Part shown: positions 56,700-57,185 of the stretch, piece by piece | How positions within the stretch are numbered: the stretch's first letter is position 1 | How the letters are laid out: each line of letters begins with the position of its first letter | NCBI GenBank assembly: GCA_937120475.1 | Contig: CAKZJV010000009.1 | Location: 248,001 to 312,000, forward strand | Length of the DNA stretch: 64,000 nucleotides | DNA from: an uncultured Cryomorphaceae bacterium | Lineage (GTDB): Bacteria; Bacteroidota; Bacteroidia; Flavobacteriales; Schleiferiaceae | Reading direction: 5' to 3' | Translations under genes and position numbers: made by a program | The notes under the pieces: generated by a model | The model's input: only the letters and a program-made list of their open reading frames with translations | What the model was told of the DNA's origin: nothing | Databases searched by the model: none

Positions 56700-56764
56700 G
56701 GTTCTTAAAACTTAATTTTTATTTTAGTCAATATAAAGCGAGACCACCGTGGTCTTTCACTTAG

Positions 56765-56836
56765 AGCCAATGAGGGGATTTGAACCCCTGACCTCTTCCT
56801 TACCAAGGAAACGCTCTACCCCTGAGCTACATCGGC
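56765..56836 (-). tRNA. tRNA-Thr (GGT)
   Basis: A 72-nt cloverleaf on the minus strand. Acceptor GCCGATG/CATTGGC (one G-U pair), anticodon GGT in CCTTGGTAAGG, T-loop TTCAAAT, discriminator U. It lies 65 nt before tuf. Confidence 0.96.
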
Positions 56837-56848
56837 AGTCATTAGTCA

Positions 56849-56910
56849 ATTAGTTGATTAGTTAATTGGTGATTAGTTTATAACCAATCAACCTTTTACT
56901 AATCAACCAA
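56849..56910. repeat. imperfect inverted repeat between tRNA-Thr(GGT) and the insert
   Basis: Left words GTTGATTAGTTAATTGGT and right words ACCAATCAAC and ACTAATCAAC form an AT-rich imperfect inverted repeat. It is a different word family from the other two spacers but has the same design. Confidence 0.5.
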
Positions 56911-56917
56911 CTTCTAC

Positions 56918-57053
56918 CTTTGAGCGGGAAACGGGATTCGAACCTCCCGATTAAATCGGGACAGGCGCGACTGGTCGCTTCAAAAGAAGCTTTCAACCAA
57001 ATCGTACCGCGAAACCAATTTCGCCACTTTGAGCGGGAAACGGGATTCGAACC
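56918..57053. repeat. 27-bp direct repeat of the tRNA-Gly 3' end bracketing an 82-bp insert
   Basis: The same 27 bp occur at 56918-56944 and 57027-57053, 109 bp apart. They cover the T-loop, T-stem 3' strand and acceptor 3' strand of tRNA-Gly; the copy at 57027 belongs to the intact gene, the other is free. The 82 bp between (56945-57026) hold four perfect inverted repeats: TCCCGATT-A-AATCGGGA (56945-56961), GCGAC-TG-GTCGC (56967-56978), GCTTC-AAAA-GAAGC (56977-56990) and GCGAAA-CCAA-TTTCGC (57009-57024). The last also resembles a Leu-type D-arm. Not a functional tRNA: no 5' acceptor strand and no anticodon arm. See findings. Confidence 0.8.
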
Positions 57054-57105
57054 CGCGACCCTCAGCTTGGAAGGCTGATGCTCTAGCCAGCTGAGCTACT
57101 CCCGC
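57032..57105 (-). tRNA. tRNA-Gly (TCC)
   Basis: A 74-nt cloverleaf on the minus strand. Acceptor GCGGGAG/TTCCCGC (one G-U pair), anticodon TCC in GCCTTCCAAGC, T-arm GCGGG-TTCGAAT-CCCGT, discriminator U. It is intact although its 3' end is duplicated downstream. Confidence 0.97.
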
Positions 57106-57109
57106 ATTT

Positions 57110-57185
57110 CGGGTTCAAAGTTTGTTGTTTAAGGTTCAAAGTTGTATTGACAACCCTTCAACTTTAAACATTCAACTTTAAACCA
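57110..57185. repeat. imperfect inverted repeat between tRNA-Gly and tRNA-Tyr
   Basis: Left words GGTTCAAAGTTTGTTGTTTAAGG and right words CCTTCAACTTTAAACATTCAACTTTAAACC are imperfect reverse complements. A recurring spacer design in this cluster. Confidence 0.5.

Follow-up and report, generated by a model that had tools for sequence, protein, structure and literature searches.

A palindrome-rich insert beside a tRNA-Gly gene in Bacteroidota, probably an ORF-less form of a tRNA-associated GIY-YIG cassette

The window analysed here, a stretch of 64,000 nucleotides from an uncultured Cryomorphaceae bacterium, carries on its minus strand the genes for tRNA-Thr(tgt), tRNA-Tyr, tRNA-Gly(tcc), tRNA-Thr(ggt) and tuf, in that order, and all features of the locus given below lie on that strand. 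The tRNA-Gly(tcc) gene (57031-57105), the host gene of the insert, is intact by ARAGORN and by the Rfam tRNA model (69 bits), and the downstream neighbour tRNA-Thr(ggt) (56764-56836, ARAGORN) anchors the comparison of the site with relatives. The original prediction had noticed a 27-bp direct repeat of the tRNA-Gly 3' end, and a repeat search confirmed it as exact: the copy within and just past the gene (57027-57053), comprising the T-arm, the 3' acceptor strand and 4 nt of flank, is 100% identical to 56918-56944, which begins at the T-arm with GGTTCGAATCC. Between the two lies a palindrome-rich insert of 82 nt (56945-57026) that contains no ORF in the window's ORF list, and insert and copy together make up an insertion of 109 bp. 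Among Rfam covariance models, only the flanking tRNAs match above gathering score and the insert matches none; ARAGORN and Rfam likewise give no tRNA model match and no recognisable cloverleaf on it. The spacers on either side (56841-56910 and 57112-57184) hold imperfect long inverted repeats, with arms of 29 and 28 nt at 79%, made of short AT-rich repeats.

The 82 nt do contain four perfect inverted repeats, as had been described, which read on the tRNA strand GCGAAA/TTTCGC (57024-57009), GCTTC/GAAGC (56990-56977), GCGAC/GTCGC (56978-56967) and TCCCGAT/ATCGGGA (56961-56945). They are not strictly in series, the second and third sharing two bases, and the statement that almost no bases are left outside them was too strong: non-overlapping perfect repeats cover 47 of the 82 nt, and all four about 57. 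A coverage of 47 nt is above chance, being reached in 2 of 2000 dinucleotide shuffles and in 1 of 1559 tiles of the window. The RNA fold of insert and copy is very stable (z = -4.5, with none of 200 shuffles as stable), and the DNA fold has a z of -2.1. The predicted RNA form is three-way. Its outer stem would be formed by the first part of the insert, an "anti-tRNA" arm GTGGCGAAATTGGTTTCG (57010-57027) that overlaps the repeat GCGAAA/TTTCGC and whose predicted partner, here and in a second genus, is the copied tRNA 3' end. The fold has two hairpin branches besides, the inner one (56964-57008) with GCTTC/GAAGC and GCGAC/GTCGC, and the second being the palindrome TCCCGATTTAATCGGGA (56945-56961), which abuts the copied tRNA piece in the way that like palindromes abut pseudo-tRNA pieces elsewhere in the genome and the phylum.

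Relatives with the same tRNA order show an empty site. In G003, of the same genus, and in G021 and G024, of two other genera, tRNA-Gly passes directly into the tRNA-Thr spacer; G003 reads ...CCCGCTCTAAGGTAG where the window reads ...CCCGCTCAAAG, the 82 nt and GGTTCGAATCCCGTTTCCCGCTCAAAGGTAG, and the 109 bp are thus a clean insertion. These empty sites contain no third tRNA from which the insert could have decayed gradually. The insert is present in G022, an Owenweeksia MAG of a second genus. There it lies at the same site, is 80% identical, likewise closes with a palindrome of this type and a copy of the tRNA end, and is predicted to take the same three-way topology (RNA z = -3.3).

The full-length insert was found only in the window genome (G000) and G022 among 88 genomes of the family and 396 of the order, and a pattern scan of the genome collection matched only the Owenweeksia MAG. 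The window genome has no second full-length copy, and only the palindromic end recurs, at tRNA-Arg, the segment GCCTGTCCCGAT..ATCGGGA being present at a second tRNA of this genome. Across the order, the pattern TGCCTGTCCCGA..TCGGGA is rare and is no general marker. The tuf gene is 90% identical to that of the window genome in G003 and 87% in G022; since the nearer relative lacks the insert and a different genus has it, either loss in G003 or lateral transfer must be assumed, and the 27-bp repeats flanking the insert would allow such a loss. A palindrome TCCCGATAAATCGGGA was also seen in an apparent 23S rRNA gene of the window genome, near tRNA-Ala and tRNA-Ile (L027, G000:C5:159706-159721).

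Many short GIY-YIG genes of these bacteria stand beside tRNA genes. From a Pfam PF01541 search of the 88 family genomes, 45 short-ORF hits were followed, picked by ORF size and score and blind to tRNAs. For 24 of the 45, the nearest tRNA was no more than 350 bp away and without exception on the strand of the gene, where about 1% would be expected; the hits are related to one another, so that a binomial value overstates their independence. In a sample across the phylum, 17 of 59 were close to a tRNA, once more all on its strand. The cassette ORFs of the family have about 85-110 codons and lie on the strand of the tRNA. The usual layout is an intact tRNA, a terminator, the ORF and a pseudo-tRNA with a palindrome; the mirror layout is a 5' pseudo-tRNA with a palindrome and then an ORF running into the intact tRNA. 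The anticodon arm of the pseudo-tRNA is often swapped for a palindrome, as with CCCCGAAAGCTTTCGGGG at Ala, CCCCAAAGCCTTGGGG at Asp and CCCCGATAGCTATCGGGG at Asn; the other common case is that the palindrome stands in for the whole tRNA as far as the T-arm. Units also occur in tandem, with two copies at Met, two at Val, and an array in G123 (L236, G123:C34:6000-11000) of eight GIY-YIG ORFs about 364 bp apart, between which lie partial tRNA-Met pieces and GC palindromes; ARAGORN finds no intact tRNA in these 5 kb.

The window genome itself has a cassette at tRNA-Asp (L020 with L077, G000:C7:1293568-1293780). Here a 5' partial copy of tRNA-Asp and a CCCCGAGTGCTCGGGG hairpin are combined with a GIY-YIG ORF that has its ATG within the anticodon arm of the copy and stops inside the intact tRNA-Asp. 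A truncated, decaying GIY-YIG ORF was also observed between its tRNA-Val(tac) and tRNA-Val(gac) genes (L025/L078, G000:C7:2982725-2982844). In a protein tree, the Asp, Val, Ala, Leu(taa), Arg(tct) and Met proteins of different genera mostly cluster by tRNA isoacceptor, and a separate clade comprises GIY-YIG proteins encoded without a nearby tRNA (L021, L022 and their relatives L110-L113, L115, L116, L140 and L148). Four tRNA-linked proteins that were tested have 84-89 aa and match essentially just the GIY-YIG domain; T5orf172 and homing endonuclease families are matched more weakly.

In another class of the phylum, cassettes occupy the gap in which the insert lies. There, G433 has an 84-codon GIY-YIG ORF between tRNA-Gly(tcc) and tRNA-Thr(ggt), and beyond the ORF comes a pseudo-tRNA-Gly in which TCCCGACTTGTCGGGA takes the place of the anticodon arm. 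When relatives of this protein were sought in the order of G433, the top six loci fell between tRNA-Gly(tcc) and tRNA-Thr(ggt), as did one more in G568, the genomes concerned being G433, G535, G507, G538, G570, G461 and G568. A pseudo-tRNA-Gly with TCCCG..CGGGA is present in G433, G507, G538 and G461, with the palindromes TCCCGTACAACGGGA (G507), TCCCGCCGTGCGGGA (G538) and TCCCGCAATTCAGCGGGA (G461). Loci L257 and L260 of this site have no complete tRNA-Gly copy, and at L258 (G507) the tRNA-Gly is partly N-masked, so that its intactness is not readable there. The remaining relatives of the G433 protein lie at Asn, Ser, Arg, Ala and Val tRNAs, and a same-strand tRNA accompanies 23 of 24 loci. A pattern joining the palindrome to the Gly 3' end, run over 247 genomes of the phylum, matched in the window genome, G433, G474 and G701. 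The G474 match reads as an ORF end, a pseudo-tRNA-Gly, a restarted ORF fragment and tRNA-Thr, and that in G701 (L283) consists of ORF-less tandem copies beside tRNA-Gly(ccc). The window insert has the site and the end structure of these Gly-Thr cassettes, minus the ORF.

In our view the 109 bp are probably a GIY-YIG homing-type cassette of the tRNA-associated kind, in a miniature or relict form that lacks the ORF. In this, the originally predicted miniature or relict tRNA-targeting element is supported by the empty sites, by the insert in a second genus and by the ORF-bearing elements at the site elsewhere. Three of four cassette features are present: the insert stands beside an intact tRNA and a partial copy of that tRNA, its GC palindrome TCCCGATTTAATCGGGA directly abuts the copied piece starting GGTTCGAATCC, and its chromosomal site, the Gly(tcc)-Thr(ggt) gap, is common to ORF-bearing members. 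The fourth, a GIY-YIG ORF, is absent, and we therefore file the insert as an ORF-less relative, which would function like such a cassette or would once have been part of one, and not as a full member. A tblastn comparison of the insert with 44 GIY-YIG proteins of the family gave no similarity (best E 0.049), after which the idea that it is the remnant of a GIY-YIG C-terminus was dropped. With no recognisable GIY-YIG remnant, its presumed descent from an ORF-bearing cassette is argued from site and architecture. About 65 nt of the insert, the anti-tRNA arm and the inner hairpin, are without counterpart in the Gly-site cassettes, and it is the tRNA-Arg and tRNA-Pro elements lacking an ORF that offer the nearest parallel. 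The short GIY-YIG genes inspected in the window's family include no ORF-bearing cassette at tRNA-Gly(tcc).

The tRNA loci of the window genome and of G022 were searched for partial copies of their own tRNA. The window genome has such copies at Arg(tct), Arg(ccg), Asp, Leu(taa), Leu(tag) and Ala(ggc), and G022 has them at Arg, Met, Asn, Val, Pro, Leu, Ser and Gln; they frequently adjoin GC palindromes, and tRNA-Arg(tct) of the window genome has two 5' fragments bearing palindromes. Upstream of tRNA-Arg(tct), the genomes G000, G022, G003 and G014 have small elements without an ORF, and G022 has one upstream of tRNA-Pro as well. The pattern GGCGANGNTGCCNGNCCCG, run across the family, recovered the tRNA-Arg elements of all four genomes, its other matches being chance-like or away from any tRNA. 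These four share a three-way structure of a tRNA 5' piece, a palindrome, a GGC hairpin and the complement of the tRNA piece, in which 5 pairs are changed on both sides (reached in 0 of 500 shuffles), a covariation that is indicative, coming from four sequences only. ORF-less fragments also lie at Arg, Ala, Met, Leu, Asn and Val tRNAs, which carry ORFs in relatives, and at Arg in G003 and Pro in G022 the ORF-less element is found just outside an ORF-bearing cassette of the same tRNA. A motif close to GCGAGAAGTNNATCCCGA..GAGGGGA was observed directly before 3' tRNA copies at Met, Asn and Leu tRNAs (L102, L103, L096, L168), and in L102 and L096 it encodes an in-frame EKFIPxAxEG running into the tRNA copy.

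Elements of this build could in principle be scars of repair or template switching, left by a break in the tRNA T-arm, fold-back synthesis and local duplication without any mobile element. Each ORF-less element does resemble a piece of tRNA together with a hairpin and the piece's own degenerate inverse, and ORF-less tandem repeats occur at tRNA-Ala (L091) and tRNA-Gly(ccc) (L283). We think this origin unlikely, however, as it leaves unexplained both the GIY-YIG ORFs at the same tRNA sites with the same junction types and the recurrence of the palindromic segment at the second tRNA of the window genome. Repair or template switching could instead be a molecular step through which a nuclease leaves such scars.

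Another reading takes the insert for a functional structured RNA, freed by tRNA processing between tRNA-Gly and tRNA-Thr and perhaps acting as a decoy that mimics a tRNA or regulating tuf, which lies downstream. The stable fold in both genera, the comparable folds with covariation at tRNA-Arg and the position within a one-strand run of tRNA genes and tuf would all suit it. Against it stand the lack of an Rfam match, the presence of the full length in just 2 of the 88 family genomes and its absence from G003 of the same genus. The parts at tRNA-Arg and tRNA-Pro (tRNA piece, palindrome, hairpin, anti-arm) are moreover the same as those of the Gly element but mirrored relative to the tRNA and to transcription, as would be expected if the element exists at the level of DNA and takes its orientation from the tRNA copy; one conserved RNA fits this order less well. 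We accordingly give a functional RNA a low probability.

Transfer RNA genes are classical landing sites for integrases, and the original prediction implied a mechanism of that type. An intact tRNA whose 3' end recurs as a direct copy beyond an insert is indeed the classical geometry, so that the 109 bp might be read as a minimal attL/attR remnant of a genomic island at the tRNA-Gly 3' end. This is very improbable, for the locus has neither integrase nor island but 82 bp between the repeats, without an ORF; relatives at the Gly-Thr site bear GIY-YIG ORFs and no integrases; and the 5' partial copies at many other tRNAs are not left by 3'-end integration. Hardly credible at all is a decayed chimeric tRNA with a Leu D-arm and a Gly T-arm, formerly the main alternative, since TGGCGAAATTGG, which resembles a Leu D-arm and is followed by a T-arm and an acceptor 3' strand, is in both genera predicted to be the arm that pairs with the copied tRNA-Gly 3' end, while no tRNA model matches the insert and no third tRNA stands at the empty sites.

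For the cassette reading, the nearest described system is SegB of phages. In T4 and T6, SegB is a free-standing GIY-YIG homing endonuclease of the phage tRNA region (PMC2988022, PMC13096335). It is encoded beside tRNAs, breaks within tRNA genes with the preferred motif RAWTSGAAC, and drives tandem tRNA-segB amplification by means of a short homology that the 5' end of the tRNA shares with the 3' end of segB (PMC13096335). The complement of this motif, GTTCSAWTY, is the conserved T-loop, where the tRNA copies described here begin. In a breakpoint survey, 28 distinct 3'-copy junctions, the window's included, began within 11 nt of the T-loop TTCRA, a clustering partly set by detection limits, as 3' copies shorter than about 11 nt escape detection. 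With the SegB motif in the T-loop and the junctions near it, we propose that the tRNA-linked nucleases may cut in or near the conserved T-arm of the target tRNA gene. Repair would then import the cassette plus a tRNA end, so that the tRNA is left whole with a palindrome-marked fragment on the far side, and recombination between tRNA and fragment could yield tandem copies, deletion of the ORF and miniature forms such as that of the window.

The cassettes share with SegB a GIY-YIG nuclease gene adjoining tRNA genes, and their tandem arrays of tRNA fragment and GIY-YIG gene recall the tandem tRNA-segB units. Unlike SegB, they lie on Bacteroidota chromosomes, the tested proteins being essentially the catalytic domain alone; their clades are tied to single isoacceptors, their ends are palindrome-bearing pseudo-tRNAs, and the form in the window carries no ORF. 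A search of the open-access literature gave no report of chromosomal tRNA-linked GIY-YIG cassettes or palindromes in Bacteroidota, and only the SegB papers were relevant. The family is apparently widespread in Bacteroidota and, as far as that literature shows, undescribed outside the phage SegB case.

It is possible, and we offer it tentatively, that the tRNA genes of Bacteroidota chromosomes are parasitised by a large family of selfish elements. Their single-domain GIY-YIG nucleases, each specific for an isoacceptor, would enter the cognate tRNA gene by homing, with the gene being restored and a pseudo-tRNA left behind that is marked by a palindrome and immune to the nuclease; ORF-less miniatures such as the insert described here, mobilised in trans, would form a tRNA-fragment-based, three-way hairpin element. 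The cassette family would explain why fragments of tRNAs and GC palindromes are so numerous next to the tRNA genes of these genomes, and its nucleases offer a panel of enzymes for asking how a selfish nuclease can target an essential gene family without killing the host.

The insert also invites comparison with other short elements. Like MITEs and other non-autonomous elements, it is short, ORF-less and palindromic, and its mobilisation by a related autonomous element is presumed. Unlike MITEs, which occur in many near-identical copies, it is single copy in the genome, is without transposase-type terminal repeats, and its "target duplication" is a tRNA end. With REP/RAYT systems it shares short GC palindromes, and some GIY-YIG genes of the window genome stand beside other palindromic repeats, but the palindrome here is joined to a tRNA fragment. 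The genes in question, L021 and L022 of the tRNA-free clade, adjoin repeats of the TCTGAG..TCGAAG type.
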